The notes under the pieces: model-generated
The model's database searches: none
Seen by the model: only the letters and a program-made list of their open reading frames with translations
What the model was told of the DNA's origin: nothing
From: a virus
IMG/VR virus record: IMGVR_UViG_3300042923_000582
Span: 1 to 41,525 of that record
Direction: 5' to 3' (one strand)
DNA: 41,525 nucleotides
Part shown: positions 539 through 41,515 of the stretch, piece after piece
Numbering within the stretch: the stretch's first letter is position 1
Layout: each line of letters opens with the position of its first letter
Made by a program: the position numbers and the translations under genes

Positions 539-1014
539 TATTAGCAATTGATCCGGGAAGTGTAGAATCAGCTTATGTGCTGTTAGATAAAAATCTTAAA
601 GCTATAGATTTTGGGAAACTACCAAATGAAGAAATGAGAAATAGAATTAAGCTCAAATTCTTTATGCCAGACTCATTAAAACTTGATATAGCAATAGAGA
701 TGATTGCGAGCTATGGAATGCCAGTTGGCGCAGAAGTTTTTGAAACTGTTAGATGGATAGGGAGATTCCAAGAAGTTGCATTTCCTAAAGAGGTGAAATT
801 CATCTATCGCAAAGATGAAAAAATGAACCTATGCCACACAATGAAAGCTAAAGACAGCAATATAATTCAAGCCTTAAAAGATAGGTTTGGAGATAAAGGC
901 ACTAAAAAGAATCCCGGTTGGTTTTATGGATTCAGTAACGATGTTTGGCAAGCTTATGCCGTAGGGATAACCTACTATGACTTATACATACGAGGTAAAC
1001 AAAATGAAAGCTAA
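535..1014 (+). CDS. RuvC-like Holliday junction resolvase
   Basis: This is a 159-residue protein of the RNase H-like resolvase fold. The opening MILAIDPGS is the RuvC motif with the first catalytic Asp. EMIASYG at about residues 62-68 supplies the expected acidic residue, and DVWQAYAVG near the C-terminus is the final acidic motif before the last helix. Resolvases of this type cut branched DNA made during phage recombination or before packaging. The ATG at 535 is chosen because GGAGGTG precedes it and it overlaps the upstream stop (ATGA); an in-frame start farther upstream would lie inside the previous gene. The next gene starts 11 bases before this one ends. Confidence 0.8.
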   Translation: MILAIDPGSVESAYVLLDKNLKAIDFGKLPNEEMRNRIKLKFFMPDSLKLDIAIEMIASYGMPVGAEVFETVRWIGRFQEVAFPKEVKFIYRKDEKMNLCHTMKAKDSNIIQALKDRFGDKGTKKNPGWFYGFSNDVWQAYAVGITYYDLYIRGKQNES

Positions 1015-3070: not shown

Positions 3071-3511
3071 ATGATTATACAGAATTATAACGACCTATGC
3101 CTAGAGATAGAGGGATTAGAACTCAGAATAGACGATATACATACGAGTATCAAATATAATCAAGACTTATTACATGGCAATTGTCCAAAGGAAATGAAAG
3201 GCATGACATATAGCGATATGCCAAAGGGTTCAGCTAATTATACAAGTATTGATAGAATATTTGAAACCATAAGCAAATTAGAATCGCACTTGTACTTAGC
3301 AGAGGAAAACCTAAAGAGTAAGAGAAAGTCAAAGAAGGATATAGAAGGGGTAATGGCTCGCTTAGAAGGGGTTGAGAACAAAGTATTTTACCTTAATAGG
3401 ATAAAAGGTATACCATTGATAAAAGTAGCTGAAGAAATAGGTTATTCAGTAAGACAGACAGAAAGAATATCGGGGGAAATAAGCAAATTATGTAAGGAAG
3501 AAGCAGTATAA
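3071..3511 (+). CDS. RinA/ArpU-like late transcription regulator with sigma-70 region-4-type HTH
   Basis: This is a 146-residue protein. The first 80 residues are coiled and helical. The end, about residues 98-138, reads KVFYLNRIKGIPLIKVAEEI... and carries a helix-turn-helix of the sigma-70 region 4 type (AEEIGYSVRQTERI). This architecture and its place immediately before the terminase cluster are those of the late activators ArpU and RinA in Firmicute phages. Its probable target is the promoter 4 bases after its stop, where TGTCGGTG occurs twice. The ATG follows GGAGGGG. Confidence 0.75.
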   Translation: MIIQNYNDLCLEIEGLELRIDDIHTSIKYNQDLLHGNCPKEMKGMTYSDMPKGSANYTSIDRIFETISKLESHLYLAEENLKSKRKSKKDIEGVMARLEGVENKVFYLNRIKGIPLIKVAEEIGYSVRQTERISGEISKLCKEEAV

Positions 3512-25156: not shown

Positions 25157-25181
25157 ATAACAAAAACTATATGAGGTGTAT

Positions 25182-25835
25182 ATGAAAGATATATTAATAT
25201 TCGGCTGTGGCGGTCATGCAAAGGTAATAACAGATATTATCGAAAAACAAGGCACATACAATATAGCAGGTTTCGTTGATGCATATAATGCGCCGGGCGA
25301 AACATTTATAGGCTATCCGGTTTTGGGTAGCGAATCCGATATATTGGATATAGGTATAAACTTGGGGATAGTTGCTATAGGTGATAATTGGACAAGAAGT
25401 AAAGTTGTCAATAAGGTATTAAGTATAAATAGTCAATTTAAATTTGTAACTGCCATTCATCCTTTTACTTCCATTGCAAAAGATGTTGTTGTAGGTGATG
25501 GCACTGTAATAATGGCAGGAAGTATAATAAATAGCAGTACGAAAATAGGAAATCATTGTATAATTAATACTAATTCGTCAATAGACCACGATAATACAAT
25601 AAATGATTTTTCGAGCATTGCACCAGGAGCAATAACAGGTGGAAATGTAAATATCGGAGAGTTCACATCAATTTCTCTAGGCGCAAAAATAAAACATGGC
25701 ATCACAATAGGCGAACATAGTGTAATAGGAGCAGGAAGCGTTGTACTCAAAAATGTAGACAGTAACGTTGTGCAATATGGTGTACCTGCCAAACATATAA
25801 GAAATAGAAATAAAGGTGATAAAAGTTTAGGGTAG
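25182..25835 (+). CDS. NeuD/PglD-like sugar O-acetyltransferase
   Basis: This is a 217-residue protein. The N-terminal PglD domain opens KDILIFGCGGHAKVITDII, a nucleotide-sugar-binding fold. From about residue 95 a left-handed beta-helix of hexapeptide repeats runs to the end, with SSIDHDNTI carrying the usual catalytic His. Proteins of this family transfer acetyl from acetyl-CoA to sialic-acid-like or amino sugars of capsules and glycans. It is not a virion or lysis gene. With its own promoter and terminator it looks like a cargo gene that changes the host surface, perhaps blocking superinfection. ATG 25182 follows GAGGTG; the GTG at 25176 lies inside that ribosome site. Confidence 0.88.
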   Translation: MKDILIFGCGGHAKVITDIIEKQGTYNIAGFVDAYNAPGETFIGYPVLGSESDILDIGINLGIVAIGDNWTRSKVVNKVLSINSQFKFVTAIHPFTSIAKDVVVGDGTVIMAGSIINSSTKIGNHCIINTNSSIDHDNTINDFSSIAPGAITGGNVNIGEFTSISLGAKIKHGITIGEHSVIGAGSVVLKNVDSNVVQYGVPAKHIRNRNKGDKSLG

Positions 25836-26134: not shown

Positions 26135-27409
26135 TTGGATCTCGCTATATTAATCACATTCACTGGCATAGGCTACTATATCTTATCAGAGTTTTTCGCC
26201 AAAGAGCAAACATTAGAAGATTACCTAAGGCACGGCATTAATACTGGTCAAACTGGTACTGGCAAATCTGTTAAATGCAGAAATGATATACTTGAATTTA
26301 AAAAATATGGTGGCTGTTTATTTATAGACCAACATGGAGTAGATAGCGAAAAGCTTTTAAATGAAATACCATTGGAAGATGTAGAAAGAACTATATATAT
26401 TAATCCCGCTGATTTAGAAATGCCTATAGGAATTAGTGTTTTTAGTGATGAAAAAGGGGAGCTGCAGAACGAATTATCTGTTAACCAATTGATATCCATA
26501 TTTGAAGCTTTATGGTCAAATAGCATCGGGCCACAAACTGAAGATTTAATAAGAATGTCTAGTTTATCCATAGTAGAGCAGGAAATATCAACTTTACTCG
26601 AAGCTTATTTAATGCTTACAAGTGAACAGTACAGAAATAGTATTAATGTAAAAAATGAAGTAGCGAAAGATTTTTGGGAAAATTGTTTTCCTGATTTTAA
26701 ATCAACTCAATTAGCGCCGCCCTTAAATAAATTTCGTGCATTAATTGCTCCAACTGTGCATAGGCTTGTACTATGTCAGAGTAAACCGAAACTAGACCTA
26801 CTTCAAGCCATGGACGAAGGTAAAATAATTATCTGTAATTTTTCTCAAAAGTTAGGGGATAAAACAAGTCAACTTTTATCAGCTATCACCGTAAGCAAAA
26901 TACAACTATTAGGCTTTACTCGAGATGAAAATAGTAAACCTTTCGGAGTATTCCTTGATGAATTTCAAAATTATGTTATAAGAACATTTTCCAAGTTTCT
27001 TTCAGAAGCACGAAAATTCAATATGCCTATGAGTTTATATCACCAATATAATTCGCAGGTTCCTGATTGGTTACTTGATGCCATTGCCGGAAATTGCGGA
27101 AGTAGATATAGCTTTAGAGTCGGAGAATTAGATGCAGCATACCTAGCTAAATTTCTAAAACCTTTTACTGAAGATGATTTAATTAATTTGCCTAATTTCA
27201 AGTATATTGCAAAGCGACTAGTCAATGGCAAAAAGGAAAAGCTTGCAATCAAGTATAAGGCTCCAAAACCTCCAAAGGTGTATGGTTATGGCGAAGAGAT
27301 TAAAAAACGTTCTAGGGAACTTTACGGCACACCAAGGGGCAAAGTTGAGGAAGATATTAAAAATAGGATTAATGCAAAAACGAAAAGCACAAATGAGGGG
27401 GAATTTTAA
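26135..27409 (+). CDS. VirD4/HerA-type DNA-transfer ATPase (coupling protein-like)
   Basis: This is a 424-residue protein. One N-terminal membrane helix (about residues 2-20) precedes a RecA-like motor with Walker A GQTGTGKS (about 39-46), Walker B-like GVFLDEFQNY (about 271-280), and a C-terminal region of the TraG/TraD-like kind (LINLPNFKYIAKRL). Such hexameric ATPases pump plasmid DNA in conjugation. It is not the packaging motor, which is terL. The start is TTG at 26135 behind GGGGGTAG; no ATG suits better. It is coupled to the next gene as TAATG. Neither a relaxase nor other mating genes are visible, so any transfer would need a helper. Confidence 0.75.
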   Translation: MDLAILITFTGIGYYILSEFFAKEQTLEDYLRHGINTGQTGTGKSVKCRNDILEFKKYGGCLFIDQHGVDSEKLLNEIPLEDVERTIYINPADLEMPIGISVFSDEKGELQNELSVNQLISIFEALWSNSIGPQTEDLIRMSSLSIVEQEISTLLEAYLMLTSEQYRNSINVKNEVAKDFWENCFPDFKSTQLAPPLNKFRALIAPTVHRLVLCQSKPKLDLLQAMDEGKIIICNFSQKLGDKTSQLLSAITVSKIQLLGFTRDENSKPFGVFLDEFQNYVIRTFSKFLSEARKFNMPMSLYHQYNSQVPDWLLDAIAGNCGSRYSFRVGELDAAYLAKFLKPFTEDDLINLPNFKYIAKRLVNGKKEKLAIKYKAPKPPKVYGYGEEIKKRSRELYGTPRGKVEEDIKNRINAKTKSTNEGEF

Positions 27410-28167
27410 TGATACTGACTAAAAGAGATAAGCAAATGTTAATCACACTTCATAACAATAGGTTTATGAATACCGACCAAATTGCGGAGCTCTTCTATAA
27501 ATATGACGAAGAAGGCAAAGAAAATAAACTATATAGAGATATTGCCTTAAGACGGCTCCGCAAAATGAAAGCTAAAGAAAACTTATTGATACTTGAATAT
27601 ATTCCCTATGCTAGAGAGAGTAAAGTCTATACCCTAGCCGAAAAAGGCTCAATCATGGTATGCAGTTGGCTTAATAAAAAATATGAAAGCTTTACATCTA
27701 AAAATGATATGCTCCAAATAGGCTTAGTCGAACACAGTTTAGAGATAAATGATATATACATACGATTACTGGCATTATGCCAAAAATACAATTATGAAAT
27801 GCTGGCTTTCTTAGTTGAAAGACACAATCGCAGAACAGTAAAGCATAATGGAATGAATATGACTTTTCAACCCGATATGTTTATGATAATAAAAAATAGA
27901 TCCACACAAAAAGGCAAAGCCTATTATGTTGAATTAGACCGAAACACCGAAGCACCTAAGAAGTTTGCACAAAAGGTTATAGCCTATGAATCCTTTTATC
28001 ATGCTGATGTGTTTAAAGAGGATTGGAACAATCAAAACATAAGACCTGACATATTAGTATTAACCGATAATAAAAATCGTTCTGAAAGGCTACAAAGTGC
28101 AATCAAGAGTAGTTTGAAATGGGTATTTATAGAGAAGGATAATATAGAAATAATATTTAGGGGGTAG
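27409..28167 (+). CDS. replication-relaxation (MobC-like) family protein
   Basis: This is a 252-residue protein. A winged-helix N-terminus (LTKRDKQMLITLHNNRFM, TDQIAELF, LRRLRKMK) is followed by a nuclease-like alpha/beta domain with QPDMFMII and YYVELDRNTE (about 154-180), where Asp, Glu and Lys are arranged as in restriction-like folds. The order of domains matches the replication-relaxation proteins of Gram-positive plasmids and integrative elements, which often lie beside a HerA/FtsK-like ATPase as here. It may bind or process the neighbouring non-coding DNA in transfer or replication. Confidence 0.7.
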   Translation: MILTKRDKQMLITLHNNRFMNTDQIAELFYKYDEEGKENKLYRDIALRRLRKMKAKENLLILEYIPYARESKVYTLAEKGSIMVCSWLNKKYESFTSKNDMLQIGLVEHSLEINDIYIRLLALCQKYNYEMLAFLVERHNRRTVKHNGMNMTFQPDMFMIIKNRSTQKGKAYYVELDRNTEAPKKFAQKVIAYESFYHADVFKEDWNNQNIRPDILVLTDNKNRSERLQSAIKSSLKWVFIEKDNIEIIFRG

Positions 28168-31579: not shown

Positions 31580-31783
31580 TCAATCAGCCTTAACCTTTAT
31601 AAAATCACTCACTTCACAATCCAACGCTATACATATCTTGGAAATTACGTTAAAATCTATACTAGAAGTCTTATTGTTCGACAATTTACTTATCGTAGAT
31701 TGTGAGATTCCAGTTTCCTTTTCTAGCCAATATCTTGATTTTCCTTTACTTTGCAATAATTCTGTAAGTGTAACTACCACCAT
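31580..31783 (-). CDS. small XRE-family HTH protein
   Basis: This 67-residue protein is almost all helix-turn-helix: LTELLQSKGKSRYWLEKETG, ISQSTISKLSNNKT, then ISKICIALDCEVSDFI, a complete Cro/C1-type fold. It lies upstream of rep and is divergent from the MazF-like gene, so it can control both from the 156-base gap between them. It might alternatively act as the antitoxin of the MazF-like protein. GGGGTGGTAAA precedes the ATG. Confidence 0.85.
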   Translation of the reverse strand: MVVVTLTELLQSKGKSRYWLEKETGISQSTISKLSNNKTSSIDFNVISKICIALDCEVSDFIKVKAD

Positions 31784-31887
31784 TTTACCACCCCATTAAT
31801 AGTAGTATACACAATAAGTACGTTTTATGCTATATAGTATTAAAAATAATTAGCTTATACAATAAATAGTTTTTGTAATAATTAGTG

Positions 31888-31917
31888 TTGACAACGGGTA
31901 TTATAATGGTATATTAT
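31888..31917 (+). promoter_or_regulatory. promoter of the MazF-helical repeat-peptide operon
   Basis: TTGACA (31888-31893) is a perfect -35; TATATT (31910-31915) or TATTAT (31912-31917) gives spacing of 16 or 18. The region upstream to 31784 is very AT-rich with two related TATAC-AATAA elements (31806 and 31856), possible XRE sites. Confidence 0.75.
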
Positions 31918-31939
31918 GGTTTTGGGGGTGTTCAGCAGC

Positions 31940-32506
31940 ATGAGAAAAAGAATAAGACGCGGAGATATATGGTTCATAAATACACCGGAAGGAATAGGGT
32001 GTGAACAGCAAGGCGATAGAGTTGCATTGGTAATAAGTCCGGATATATGCCAAGAAAAATCAGACAATGTAATCGTCTTACTGGGGACAAAACAAGAGAA
32101 AAAAGTAGACCTTCAAACTCAATTTGTAGTAAATACGGATTGGGGTTTGAAATATGATACAGTTTTCATGGCAGAGCAAATCAAAAGTGTAGATAGACAA
32201 AGATTTATGATGTACTGTACTCACTTAGATAATTTCAAGATGCAGGAAGCTCATAAAGCAATGTGTGTAGCGCAAGGATTACTTGAACCTATCAATAATA
32301 AATACATCAAATTACTAATCGACTACATAAATATGCTAGATCAAGAATTAATAACATATCAATCAGCTTCTGTGCAAAAATTGCGAGAAGAAAAAATCAT
32401 TGAGTTAAAAGAATACTGTGAAGAATACAGATATGACTACAGAGTGTTTCTCGAGAGGTACTTGTTGTTTAAGGAGGTCGAGAATATTGAAAGAATTTAC
32501 AGCTAG
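31940..32506 (+). CDS. MazF/PemK-like endoribonuclease with helical C-terminal extension
   Basis: This is a 188-residue protein. Residues 1-110 match MazF: RRGDIWFINTPEGIGCEQQG, DRVALVIS (catalytic Arg), LLGTKQ (catalytic Thr) and FMAEQIKSVDRQRF. Such enzymes cut mRNA at short motifs. Residues 110-188 are helical and charged, well beyond the usual 110-120 length of MazF, with no antitoxin gene adjoining. It is first in an operon with a helical-repeat protein and a secreted repeat peptide, and overlaps the second gene, so the extension may dock that protein. ATG 31940 follows GGGGGTG. Confidence 0.8.
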   Translation: MRKRIRRGDIWFINTPEGIGCEQQGDRVALVISPDICQEKSDNVIVLLGTKQEKKVDLQTQFVVNTDWGLKYDTVFMAEQIKSVDRQRFMMYCTHLDNFKMQEAHKAMCVAQGLLEPINNKYIKLLIDYINMLDQELITYQSASVQKLREEKIIELKEYCEEYRYDYRVFLERYLLFKEVENIERIYS

Positions 32507-33002
32507 AAAAAACGAAGTACTAGAAATGTATAAAAAAAACCAGTATTTAGAGACAGCCAATAGATGCGCAGAATACATAGGCTATATAGATTTAGACGAT
32601 TTTGAAATGTTCGGAGAATTGTATTTCTTCAATGATGTTATATTCAACTGTTTCTTTAGATTAAGTGATGAAGAACAATGCTTAAAGGCTAGTAAAGAAT
32701 GTGTAAGATATGCAACTACAGATTATGAAACTCGCAAGGCTATACAAAATCAAATAAGGCTTGCAGTAAATATAGGAAAAGAACATGAAGCATTAGTCAA
32801 GATAGAAGATAACCTGGAGTATTTTAAAAGTATCGACCATACATTATCATATGCAGATACATTAGTTTTAAAAGGAAAGGCAACAAAAGATTCAAGCTAC
32901 ATCAAAGAAGCTATTGAAATATATAAACAATCAGATATTGACACAACAGCAGAGCAAGAGCGAGCAAAAGCAGCGATTAAAGCATTAAGACATTTATCCT
33001 AA
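32487..33002 (+). CDS. TPR-like helical-repeat protein, candidate peptide receptor
   Basis: This 171-residue, all-helical protein has TPR-like pairs (NQYLETANRCAEYIGYID, EEQCLKASKECVRYATTD, YIKEAIEIYKQSDI). Peptide receptors of the RRNPP class (Rap, PlcR, AimR) sense small peptides with TPR domains, and their peptide gene is normally next, as here. Unlike those it has no HTH and is about half as long. The start is TTG 32487 behind AAGGAGG at 9 bases, overlapping the MazF-like gene by 20 bases; the upstream ATG at 32418 gives a Cys/Arg-rich start that looks non-coding. It might bind the MazF-like protein and be regulated by the peptide. Confidence 0.65.
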   Translation: MKEFTARKNEVLEMYKKNQYLETANRCAEYIGYIDLDDFEMFGELYFFNDVIFNCFFRLSDEEQCLKASKECVRYATTDYETRKAIQNQIRLAVNIGKEHEALVKIEDNLEYFKSIDHTLSYADTLVLKGKATKDSSYIKEAIEIYKQSDIDTTAEQERAKAAIKALRHLS

Positions 33003-33010
33003 TACATACG

Positions 33011-33041
33011 TGCAAAGTAAATTTACATATACCCCTTTGCA
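33011..33041 (+). promoter_or_regulatory. hairpin before the peptide gene
   Basis: TGCAAAG (33011-33017) pairs with CTTTGCA (33035-33041), ending 2 bases before the AAGGAGGTG ribosome site. It may modulate peptide translation or protect the mRNA. Confidence 0.45.
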
Positions 33042-33057
33042 AAAGGAGGTGATACAA

Positions 33058-33243
33058 ATGAAGAAGTTAATAGCAATACTATTAATAGTAATGACATTGA
33101 TAACAGTAGGTGTGTTCGCTTGGGATGATACGGATCCAAGAGGTAAAAGAATAGGTTGGGATGATACAGATCCTAGAGGAACATCAATAACAGTTGCTTG
33201 GGATGATACAGACCCAAGAGGGCCCGGAATAATAAAGGCATAA
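33058..33243 (+). CDS. secreted peptide precursor with three WDDTDPRG repeats (candidate pheromone)
   Basis: This is a 61-residue protein. MKKLIAILLIVMTLITVGVFA is a full signal peptide ending in a V-F-A cleavage site. The mature part starts exactly at the first WDDTDPRG (residues 22-29); identical octapeptides follow at 34-41 and 48-55, joined by KRIG and TSITVA. Codons differ among repeats while the residues do not, a sign of selection on the peptide. Exported repeat precursors like this are typical of signalling peptides. The gene directly follows a TPR-like gene. ATG 33058 has AAGGAGGTGATACAA. Alternatives are a RiPP precursor or a surface peptide. Confidence 0.75.
   Translation: MKKLIAILLIVMTLITVGVFAWDDTDPRGKRIGWDDTDPRGTSITVAWDDTDPRGPGIIKA
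33121..33222 (+). repeat. three 24-base repeats encoding WDDTDPRG
   Basis: The copies lie at 33121-33144, 33157-33180 and 33199-33222. They differ at third positions (ACG/ACA, GAT/GAC, CCA/CCT, GGT/GGA/GGG) yet encode the same octapeptide. Confidence 0.95.
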
Positions 33244-33248
33244 AAATA

Positions 33249-33275
33249 GCGAGGTTAATTCCTCGCCTTTTTTAT
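33249..33275 (+). terminator. terminator of the peptide operon
   Basis: GCGAGG (33249-33254) pairs with CCTCGC (33261-33266) around TTAATT, then C and a T tract. It lies between the peptide gene and the convergent Cys-rich gene. Confidence 0.85.
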
Positions 33276-33397
33276 TGGGTTTGTTCGTATGTATTAGGTT
33301 TCTTTCCGGGACATTCAACAGCTTCTTTCTTACCGCCTATCGTAATAGTTTTAACCTTCTTCAACAGACATTCATCACATTCCTCTCTACATTGCAT
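33272..33397 (-). CDS. LexA-boxed small Cys-rich protein, candidate inducer/antirepressor
   Basis: This protein has 41 residues, starting MQCREECDECLLKKVKTITI and with a fourth Cys near residue 29, so a zinc knuckle (CxxxCxxC) is likely. AAAGGGGATAAA precedes the ATG at 33397; the longer frame lacks a ribosome site. Its promoter (TTCCCA, 17 bases, TACAAT) is overlapped by a perfect GAAC-N4-GTTC box. It is transcribed toward the peptide operon and away from the repressor. Several phages use an SOS-induced small protein to inactivate a repressor that cannot cleave itself; this gene is placed to do that, though nothing in its sequence proves it. Confidence 0.6.
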   Translation of the reverse strand: MQCREECDECLLKKVKTITIGGKKEAVECPGKKPNTYEQTQ

Positions 33398-34006: not shown

Positions 34007-34075
34007 TTTTTTCACCCCCCAATGTTCATATATTCTCTTATTCTATCATTTATTATATACAATTTCTACAAGCAA

Positions 34076-34166
34076 TATTCTCTAACAACGATATGAGAAT
34101 TATTTAAAATATATTTGAGAATTTATGAGAAATAGTATTGACAGTGTGAGAAAATGCGAATATAAT
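34076..34166 (+). promoter_or_regulatory. lytic promoter and repressor operators
   Basis: TTGACA (34138-34143), 17 bases, TATAAT (34161-34166): a perfect consensus promoter reading to the Cro-like gene. TGAGAA occurs at 34094, 34116, 34126 and 34147, the last inside the spacer, and an inverted copy TATTCTCT is at 34076. These are likely binding sites of the CI-like and Cro-like proteins. Confidence 0.8.
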
Positions 34167-34207
34167 ATGAGTATAAGGTTAAACTATAAGAAAAGAGGTG
34201 ATAAAAC

Positions 34208-38005: not shown

Positions 38006-38167
38006 ATGGAAGAACCAAGATGCATCAATTGCGAATACCACTCCTGCACAAATGATAATCAACTTATAAGGCACAGATGTAGAAGAAAAGAATATCCACT
38101 AGAACAGTTTGAATACATACGCACTAGTCCTGAATGGTGTCCTAAACGATATAGAGTGTTTTGGTAG
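38006..38167 (+). CDS. 53-residue Cys-rich protein
   Basis: CINCEYHSC, then HRCRRKE and a C-terminal WCPKRY, gives five Cys and His suitable for zinc. GGAGGGATAAC precedes the ATG. Similar small proteins recur through this operon. Function is unknown. Confidence 0.65.
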   Translation: MEEPRCINCEYHSCTNDNQLIRHRCRRKEYPLEQFEYIRTSPEWCPKRYRVFW

Positions 38168-39127: not shown

Positions 39128-39196
39128 TGAAAAACCCTAGACCTTCTCATTATCTAATATAGCCAAATAAAAGATTCTTATACATACGAGGTGACT

Positions 39197-39373: not shown

Positions 39374-39733
39374 ATGGATTATGAAATAAGAAATGTCTAT
39401 CGAGAAGCAATAGAACCAAGTGAATGTATACCTAGAAAAATGACCGACGAAGAACGGCTTAGATATGGCAAACCTAGACCAAACAGTAATGAACCATATT
39501 GGATATTAAAGAATCCTGCAAAATGCAAGGAATATCAAAATACATACGGCTTATCAGATGAACATATGGCAGATTTAAAACAATGTATGGCACAAAAAGG
39601 ATATGAAAATCAACTATATGCAAAGGTAGAAAATAGGAAAGCAATTAAAGAACTAGCAACAGCAACTTATAAAACACATAACCAAGCAGAGTTTGAAGCA
39701 GAGATTATACCAATGGGGCCGATAATACAATGA
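39374..39733 (+). CDS. early protein of unknown function
   Basis: This 119-residue protein is rich in Glu, Lys, Tyr and Pro (IPRKMTDEERLRYGKPRPNS), with a helical second half. GGAGGGTTAATCA precedes the ATG. Its TGA overlaps the next ATG (ATGA), so it is coupled to the methyltransferase-like gene. Confidence 0.65.
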   Translation: MDYEIRNVYREAIEPSECIPRKMTDEERLRYGKPRPNSNEPYWILKNPAKCKEYQNTYGLSDEHMADLKQCMAQKGYENQLYAKVENRKAIKELATATYKTHNQAEFEAEIIPMGPIIQ

Positions 39734-40344
39734 ACAATGTGAAGTCGCTGGATAACAGCCAAAAGATAATTTTAGATTTATGCGGCGGTACTGGGAGTTG
39801 GTCAAAGCCTTATAAAGAAGCTGGATATGATGTAAGAGTTGTCACCCTTCCAGAACATGATGTTTTGACATATGAGCCGCCAACAAATACATACGGAATA
39901 TTTGCAGCACCACCTTGCACAATGTTTAGTTTGGCAAGAACTACAGCAAAAACTCCTAGAGATTTCAAACAAGGTTTAGAGATAGTTGAAGCTTGCGAAA
40001 AGATTATAAGGCAATGCAGAATTAATGGCGGCTTGAAGTTTTGGGCATTAGAAAATCCTGTAGGCTATTTAAGACAGTTTTTAGGCAAGCCGTACCTGAC
40101 CTATCAGCCTAATGAATACGGAGATAATTACACTAAAAAAACTGATATATGGGGATATTTCAATCTGCCAGTTAAATGCAAAAGAGAATTGACAGCAGAA
40201 GAAATAGCGAAGTGTTCAGTAAACAACAGAGATTTACCACAATTGCCGGAAGGATATAGACCGCCAGACGGCAACTTACAAGCAGCAAGAAGGGCAATGA
40301 CCTCACAAGGTTTTGCACAAGCATTTTTCAAAGCTAATCAATAA
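39730..40344 (+). CDS. C5-methyltransferase-like protein (Rossmann MTase)
   Basis: This is a 204-residue protein. LDLCGGTGSWSKPYKEAGYD (about residues 14-33) is motif I for SAM binding. AAPPCTMFSLAR (about 58-69) resembles the Pro-Cys catalytic motif IV, and WALENPVGYLRQ (about 106-117) resembles motif VI. The enzyme lacks a large target-recognition domain and the motif VIII/IX block of normal DNA methyltransferases. It may modify DNA, nucleotides or another substrate. It is coupled to the preceding gene and upstream of ssb. Confidence 0.75.
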   Translation: MNNVKSLDNSQKIILDLCGGTGSWSKPYKEAGYDVRVVTLPEHDVLTYEPPTNTYGIFAAPPCTMFSLARTTAKTPRDFKQGLEIVEACEKIIRQCRINGGLKFWALENPVGYLRQFLGKPYLTYQPNEYGDNYTKKTDIWGYFNLPVKCKRELTAEEIAKCSVNNRDLPQLPEGYRPPDGNLQAARRAMTSQGFAQAFFKANQ

Positions 40345-40997: not shown

Positions 40998-41515
40998 TTA
41001 TATTCGGTCAAATGGGTTCCGGTAAAGACACAGTTGCAGATATGCTCAGAGAATATGGATATACAACGGCAAAGATTGGTAAATACATACGAGAGAACGT
41101 TGATAAATACAATTATGCTTTTGAAAACAAAAGACCTTTATATCAGCAGTATGGACAAATGTGCAGACGATTGTTCGGCGACAATGTTTGGAATGAAGCA
41201 CTTGAAAATGACTTAATAACAGAGGTTGCAAAATACAAAATAGGCTACTTTGCAATAGCTGACGGAAGGCAATTGAACGAGTTTGAATATTGGAAAAGCA
41301 GAGGATTTTTAACAGTAGGTATATTAGCAGATGCAAACATAAGAGATAAAAGGCTTATAGAGCGTGATGGAATAAGTCAAAAGCAATACTTCAATCATCA
41401 AACGGAAATTGAAGCAATGGAATGTATTCAAAGGTGCAGTTACATAGTCAATAACAACGAATCCTTTGAGTTTTTAAAAGCACAAATAGATATGATCGTT
41501 AAAATGATTGATTAG
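40985..41515 (+). CDS. deoxynucleoside monophosphate kinase
   Basis: This is a 176-residue P-loop kinase. GQMGSGKDT (residues 8-16) is Walker A. The rest (a GYFAIADGRQLNEFEYWKSR segment and IRDKRLIERDG with the lid Arg residues) fits phage dNMP kinases. It phosphorylates dNMPs to dNDPs for replication, complementing the dCMP deaminase encoded about 1.3 kb after the join. GAGGGGGAAGAAAA precedes the ATG. The gene runs through the contig junction. Confidence 0.85.
   Translation: MQGVIIFGQMGSGKDTVADMLREYGYTTAKIGKYIRENVDKYNYAFENKRPLYQQYGQMCRRLFGDNVWNEALENDLITEVAKYKIGYFAIADGRQLNEFEYWKSRGFLTVGILADANIRDKRLIERDGISQKQYFNHQTEIEAMECIQRCSYIVNNNESFEFLKAQIDMIVKMID

Follow-up and report, generated by a model that had tools for sequence, protein, structure and literature searches.

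Two described phage systems offer the closest parallels to the locus analyzed here. The arbitrium system of phage phi3T acts through MazF activity, a high level of the AimP peptide leading to active MazF and lysogeny (PMC10769878), and phage-linked Phr propeptides are known in which identical pheromones are arranged in tandem (PMC11343458). This report concerns a three-gene operon in the viral record IMGVR_UViG_3300042923_000582, all 41,525 nucleotides of which were analyzed and are referred to below as the window. The operon encodes, in this order, a PemK/MazF-type endoribonuclease (gene 1), a protein with a predicted tetratricopeptide repeat (TPR) fold (gene 2) and a pro-peptide, predicted to be exported, that carries three copies of the octapeptide WDDTDPRG (gene 3). 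We give about an even chance to the operon being a peptide-gated RNase switch, in which the peptide acts on a receptor and the receptor on the RNase.

A preliminary description of this DNA had recognized a TTGACA promoter followed by three close or overlapping genes and a terminator, and all of these elements are present:

31888-31917, plus strand: promoter, TTGACA-16/18-TATATT/TATTAT (11 of 12 consensus matches, the best of the region)
31940-32506, plus strand: gene 1, PemK/MazF-type endoribonuclease, 188 aa (Pfam, PHROG and PDB profile matches)
32487-33002, plus strand: gene 2, TPR protein of 171 aa with no DNA-binding domain (structure prediction and profile match)
33000-33017, plus strand: spacer block TAATACATACGTGCAAAG, upstream of the gene 3 Shine-Dalgarno (SD) sequence, the same letters in four of four phages
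33058-33243, plus strand: gene 3, predicted exported pro-peptide, 61 aa (from its sequence)
33249-33266, plus strand: intrinsic terminator, bidirectional on paper

The preferred start codons are ATG at 31940 for gene 1 (with the short SD GGGGGTG), TTG at 32487 for gene 2 (SD AAGGAGG at 32471-32477) and ATG at 33058 for gene 3 (SD AAAGGAGGTGAT); genes 1 and 2 overlap by 20 nt.

Relatives of the operon were found by searching viral contigs for a two-copy octapeptide pattern, which yielded three further phage records, G016 (38.4 kb), G017 (39.9 kb) and G018 (38.6 kb). The gene order, the overlap of genes 1 and 2, the spacer block and the terminator are common to all three, and their repeats read WDDTDPKG throughout. 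As a check on ascertainment, the collection was searched again with a gene 1 profile and with a gene 2 motif; both searches led back to these three records and to no further true homologue. Since three other phage records hold the same three genes in the same order, a chance arrangement is excluded. The preliminary description had suggested a search for this gene order with other repeats, and had tied its reading to the linkage of the peptide gene with the TPR gene and to the recurrence of the repeats in relatives; the linkage is kept in four of four phages and the repeats are preserved. The TTGACA-18-TATTAT form of the promoter is maintained in G016 despite otherwise unrelated upstream DNA. 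The G016 contig has a version of gene 3 at each end (L055:9506-9649 and L060:1-135): in one, TAG stands in place of the third W codon and two copies remain, and the other is intact, with three copies; the contig is likely to represent two strains assembled together. A hairpin is visible ahead of the gene 3 SD, for which four sequences carry little information.

Other searches added no relatives. Genes 2 and 3, each used as a single-protein query against phage, plasmid and viral collections, gave no match, and 15 terminase-related records were without genes 1 or 2. A gene 2 profile search of viral contigs gave 600 candidates, among which the known relatives did not appear, so this search was uninformative. 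One locus (L075) was dismissed as a chance match.

The product of gene 3 reads MKKLIAILLIVMTLITVGVFA, followed by WDDTDPRG, KRIG, WDDTDPRG, TSITVA, WDDTDPRG and PGIIKA. Its parts are:

33058-33120, plus strand: putative signal peptide MKKLIAILLIVMTLITVGVFA (read from the sequence as KK, a hydrophobic stretch and V-F-A)
33121-33144, plus strand: octapeptide copy 1, WDDTDPRG
33157-33180, plus strand: octapeptide copy 2, WDDTDPRG
33199-33222, plus strand: octapeptide copy 3, WDDTDPRG

A signal peptidase I site was predicted by eye ahead of W22 (VFA/W, and VAA/W in the relatives), which agrees with the earlier claim that the first copy stands directly at the cleavage site. All 41 of the differences between octapeptide copies within one genome fall at third codon positions. 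In comparisons with the window, the ratio of non-synonymous to synonymous substitution rates (dN/dS) is about 0.05-0.1 for the mature part of gene 3 and 0.36-0.6 for its signal peptide, and the sole non-synonymous octapeptide change between genomes is that of R to K, which occurs in every copy. Selection on gene 3 therefore acts on the peptide: the octapeptide is an amino-acid unit maintained in multiple identical copies, which is what a multi-copy pheromone predicts. The same data disfavor a type III toxin-antitoxin (TA) system, in which the repeats would act as a ToxI-like RNA antitoxin for a toxin of MazF/ToxN fold. ToxN does have the MazF fold, and the period of ToxI repeats, 36 nt, equals the first repeat period of gene 3; however, the repeats here lie downstream, behind an SD and a signal peptide, and the codon positions of their differences show them to be fixed as protein. 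On the latter ground the RNA antitoxin was rejected, and we give it hardly any credence.

For gene 2, the TPR-like character proposed earlier was borne out by structure prediction. The AlphaFold2 model built from four sequences has a mean predicted local distance difference test (pLDDT) score of 93.9, reached by two of five models (the other three lie at 67-72), and a predicted template-modeling (TM) score (pTM) of 0.85, with nine helices arranged in TPR pairs. Designed TPR proteins match in a profile search (E=5.6e-5), and no match was obtained with the Pfam TPR models, PHROG or NCBIfam. Among the PDB matches listed by Foldseek, the closest superposition is that of the pheromone-bound Rap of phage phi3T (TM 0.77-0.80, normalized to the query, at 2.5-2.9 Å), most other listed matches lying at about 0.6-0.74 and 3.7-6 Å. 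The protein is without a helix-turn-helix (HTH) domain, and the AimR model fails to match it. When A helices are taken as the groove side by TPR convention, invariant residues are concentrated there in TPR units 2-4 (24 of 52 positions, vs 15 of 57 in B helices; p=0.025), with p=0.064 over all five A helices. They include N54, N88, Q89, R91, N95 and K129, which in the model would be chemically suited to an Asp-rich peptide.

Two further explanations of gene 3 were weighed. The peptide might act outside the cell or at its surface, as a bacteriocin-like product, in superinfection exclusion or as a surface ligand, with genes 1 and 2 forming a separate stress module. The signal peptide is clear by eye, and the mature product, 40 aa long and with three acidic repeats that each contain W, could serve as a multivalent ligand; nevertheless, the conserved unit is the octapeptide, in identical copies separated by linkers and adjoining a Rap-like TPR gene, and tandem identical pheromones have their precedent in phage Phr propeptides (PMC11343458). 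We consider extracellular action improbable. Alternatively, the peptide could act directly on the RNase, gene 2 not being its receptor, in the manner of extracellular death factor (EDF) peptides such as NNWNN, which are reported to boost MazF activity (PMC5930309). The octapeptide likewise contains W, but direct action leaves a conserved TPR protein without a role. To our knowledge, moreover, EDFs are not encoded beside mazF as dedicated repeats, and we regard this explanation as very improbable.

The assignment of gene 1 to the PemK/MazF family of endoribonucleases is supported by concordant profile matches: PemK_toxin in Pfam (E=1e-18), PHROG 1936, 'MazF-like growth inhibitor' (residues 1-177, E=7.8e-20), and, with a four-sequence profile against the PDB, PemK (4hke, E=4.6e-22) and EndoA (about 5e-20). 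Of the solved structures, those of B. subtilis EndoA and PemK are closest to gene 1. The catalytic Arg and Thr named in the preliminary description correspond to R27 (in GCEQQGDR) and T50 (in LLGTK), which stand at the expected positions and are invariant in the four phages. The C-terminus is extended by about 70 aa, which a poor model predicts to be helical. No MazE-type antitoxin adjoins gene 1, whose neighbors are a divergent HTH gene and the TPR gene, and the MazF homologues of other phages (Brigit, Javan405, Listeria and faecal phages) are without a TPR or repeat-peptide partner.

Comparison of the four phages revealed that the operon is mosaic. Between the window and G018 the flanking DNA and the HTH, Rep and ParA genes are 96-99% identical, vs 64% for gene 1, 45% for gene 2 and 80% for gene 3. 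Gene 1 of the window is closer to that of G018 (64%) than to that of G016 (49%), and gene 2 is closer to that of G016 (58%) than to that of G018 (45%). Residues 1-135 of the window gene 2 are closest to G016, while residues 136-171 of G016 group with G018, like its K-type peptide; the C-terminus of the putative receptor (from about residue 135) thus segregates with the peptide type (permutation/breakpoint p about 0.005). Strong divergence of two genes between near-identical flanks is often seen in TA pairs, and gene 2 could be a plain antitoxin of gene 1 that serves plasmid maintenance, gene 3 being a passenger on the shared promoter. The MazF family of gene 1, the toxin-first, overlapping arrangement on a plasmid-like genome that carries ParA, and the absence of a MazE-like gene are all consistent with such an addiction pair. 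We nevertheless see in it a real but minor possibility: gene 3 is kept in four of four phages and its octapeptide is strongly constrained at the protein level, recombination separates genes 1 and 2, and a literature search yielded no TPR antitoxin of MazF.

A candidate target of the RNase came from word counts. UACAU is the MazF cleavage site in B. subtilis and S. aureus (PMC5408214), and its occurrence in the conserved spacer between genes 2 and 3 was tested ahead of any enrichment calculation. UACAU alone shows no consistent enrichment within the operon (8, 2, 2 and 4 copies), so the argument is carried solely by a 9-mer, ATACATACG, of which UACAU is the core in RNA. This is the top over-represented 9-mer in all four operon phages (second in G016), with 9-11 copies per genome vs about 0.2 expected, an excess of about 40-60-fold; on the coding-majority strand, the four phages hold 37 copies vs 0.6 expected. 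Pooled single-base variants occur about 20 times vs 23 expected, the sole raised one being ATACATTCG (7 vs 0.7). Nine phage records that are related by terminase but lack the operon contain a single copy of ATACATACG in 306 kb, and the other fetched loci have none in 220 kb. The ten sites of the window, and the neighboring genes that bear on them, are:

984-992, plus strand: ATACATACG site
3137-3145, plus strand: ATACATACG site
27756-27764, plus strand: ATACATACG site in the Replic_Relax gene
33002-33010, plus strand: ATACATACG site between genes 2 and 3
33286-33294, minus strand: ATACATACG site at the end of the Cys-rich open reading frame (ORF), sense to it
38113-38121, plus strand: ATACATACG site
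39180-39188, plus strand: ATACATACG site overlapping a ribosome-binding site
39540-39548, plus strand: ATACATACG site
39887-39895, plus strand: ATACATACG site
41083-41091, plus strand: ATACATACG site
33272-33397, minus strand: Cys-rich ORF, 41 aa, CxxxCxxC, convergent, near-identical in the four phages
31580-31783, minus strand: Cro/CI-type HTH protein, divergent, a possible regulator of the operon (another gene stands in its place in G016)

Counting both strands, the four phages have 42 sites at about 24 independent positions. They are essentially always sense to transcription and lie almost only in early genes; the reverse copies all lie where the convergent Cys-rich ORF ends or just beyond, in the sense orientation of that gene. 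None of the ten window sites falls within the structural region at 3.9-27.4 kb (p=0.0002 under uniform placement). The genic sites occupy all three frames, and the 9-mer is therefore not a protein motif. Sites are predicted to be unpaired more often than random stretches (0.58 vs 0.48, p=0.006) and marginally more often than other UACAU (p=0.057). A different word, GTTGTCGGT, appears in the top lists of G016 only (L060/L061; 5 copies vs 0.04 expected, on one strand).

That the gene 1 RNase reads ATACATACG is an attractive link, suggested by the shared core. The 9-mer could instead be an asymmetric DNA site of a phage repressor, as are the stoperators, which lie at dispersed positions (PMC9283540), or a seed site for a small RNA. 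The operon is flanked by genes for HTH proteins, and each operon has one reverse copy just beyond the gene 3 terminator, a possible antisense seed on the plus strand. The divergent promoter regions at 31784-31940 and 34016-34207, however, contain no copy, the sites are mainly intragenic and in all three frames, their core is the Gram-positive MazF pentamer, and one site is conserved in the spacer between genes 2 and 3. We place this explanation of the 9-mer somewhat short of an even chance. If the chain from peptide through receptor to RNase is granted, AUACAUACG as the RNase target has an even chance or slightly better.

The switch that we favor would operate as follows. The gene 3 product would be exported and cut by signal peptidase just ahead of the first W, and its mature part trimmed to several identical peptides of the WDDTDPR/KG type, which would build up as infected or lysogenic cells become more numerous and probably re-enter them through the host oligopeptide permease. 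The peptide would dock on the concave face of gene 2, as its fold and conserved polar residues suggest. Gene 2, having no DNA-binding domain, would act like Rap, by protein-protein contact, on the product of the translationally coupled gene 1, and may be expected to hold the RNase back until peptide is bound. The sign of this control, with gene 2 as an inhibitor released by the peptide, is a guess based on analogy with phi3T, where high AimP gives active MazF and lysogeny. Once freed, the RNase would cleave early mRNAs of the phage itself, with AUACAUACG as the most likely site, and thereby slow lytic development or replication and favor the carried, plasmid-like state. Taken as a whole, this scheme, in which peptide density works through a minimal Rap-like TPR receptor on a MazF-type RNase that cuts the exact 9-nt tag AUACAUACG in the early mRNAs and in the operon itself, is possible but doubtful.

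Several observations weigh against the scheme or parts of it. MazF sites are reported to be of 3-7 nt, not 9, and other genes are also common to the four phages, so that a link of the 9-mer to gene 1 does not follow. The structure model of gene 1 has a pLDDT of 42. Genes 1 and 2 do not segregate together as one unit, and the linkage between receptor C-terminus and peptide type could be explained by adjacency alone, as well as being what co-adaptation would produce. The Foldseek E-values of gene 2 are weak (best 1.5e-3), the eukaryotic TPR proteins LGN and KLC being ranked first. There is no sequence match between gene 2 and the Rap, NprR, PlcR, PrgX, Rgg or AimR families, and at 171 aa it falls outside the receptor length of 250-500 aa applied by RRNPP_detector (PMC10075063). 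Membership in RRNPP by receptor length and sequence family is thus not supported; the features shared with RRNPP(A) systems are the adjacent gene for an exported propeptide in four of four phages (export being read from the sequence) and a receptor of TPR fold. The peptide-gated toxin or communication system put forward in the preliminary description is partly supported: gene linkage, repeats and TPR fold have stood.

The record has an exact 123-bp direct repeat at both termini, and we therefore treat the window as a complete circular genome, that of a phage-plasmid. Its genes include those for a P22-type portal, a terminase, a glucosaminidase lysin, ParA, Replic_Relax and ERF. The ORFs inspected contained no integrase, although no systematic search for one was made. 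The host would be Gram-positive, judged solely on strong SDs, low GC content and the lysin type, and a scan of genome contigs for a bacterial host gave nothing beyond a chance Streptomyces Pro-rich match. The Rfam scan produced no family above its gathering score, and PADLOC no system matching genes 1-3. The Cys-rich ORF, which has no family match, travels with the module (a diverged homologue is found in G016b, L060 near 189, minus strand) and may be its fourth member. Elsewhere in the window, a VirD4/HerA-like ATPase adjoins the Replic_Relax protein (26135-28167), a pair that is unusual for a tailed phage and suggests a conjugation-like or plasmid replication module. From the sequence as read, a DNA cytosine methyltransferase appears to be split across two overlapping frames at 1669-2830, and a left-handed beta-helix (NeuD-like) acyltransferase homologue, possibly for surface modification, lies beside the lysin at 25176-25835.

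The best reading, by analogy, is that the system works like arbitrium-MazF and Rap-Phr. With the arbitrium AimR-AimP/MazEF system of phi3T (PMC10769878) it would share a phage peptide, a TPR receptor and, as proposed here, MazF as the lysis-lysogeny output, a likeness closer than the preliminary description had supposed. In phi3T, however, the MazF is that of the host, the antiterminator AimR carries an HTH, and AimX, YosL and phi3T_93 are intermediaries, whereas here the MazF-type RNase is encoded by the phage in the same operon and the receptor is without an HTH; the arbitrium arrangement, an AimR with an N-terminal HTH and aimX downstream, is not that of this locus. The Rap-Phr systems of phi3T and phi105 (PMC11343458) likewise have a TPR protein without an HTH and a tandem-peptide propeptide, and the contact action proposed here is that of Rap. 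Rap, in contrast, has about 360 aa, a three-helix bundle and host regulators as targets, while gene 2 has 171 aa, an RNase as its operon partner and no sequence-family match. The toxin family of gene 1, with its catalytic R and T, and the UACAU core of the candidate site recall the type II TA systems MazEF/PemIK, which differ in having MazE and in lacking the toxin-first order, the TPR protein, the exported peptide and the C-terminal helical extension. As in EDF-MazF (PMC5930309), a density peptide would act on MazF activity, but EDF is not known to be encoded by tandem repeats of its own within the toxin operon, nor to have a TPR receptor. The 9-mer resembles the stoperators of Cluster A mycobacteriophages (PMC9283540) in that both are short, asymmetric sites scattered in a temperate phage, and departs from them as an exact word with a MazF core that lies in coding regions, in all frames, and at no divergent promoter.

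A literature search found no paper on a combination of MazF, TPR protein and peptide, in agreement with the earlier view that no system of this composition had been described. If our reading is correct, this would be the first described phage operon to join a peptide-sensing TPR protein with an mRNA-cutting RNase of a toxin family, a single transcript doing what arbitrium phages achieve through the MazEF of their host. If, in addition, the 9-mer is the site of this RNase, the phage would mark its own mRNAs with dedicated tags for cleavage, and MazF specificity would extend beyond 3-7 nt.
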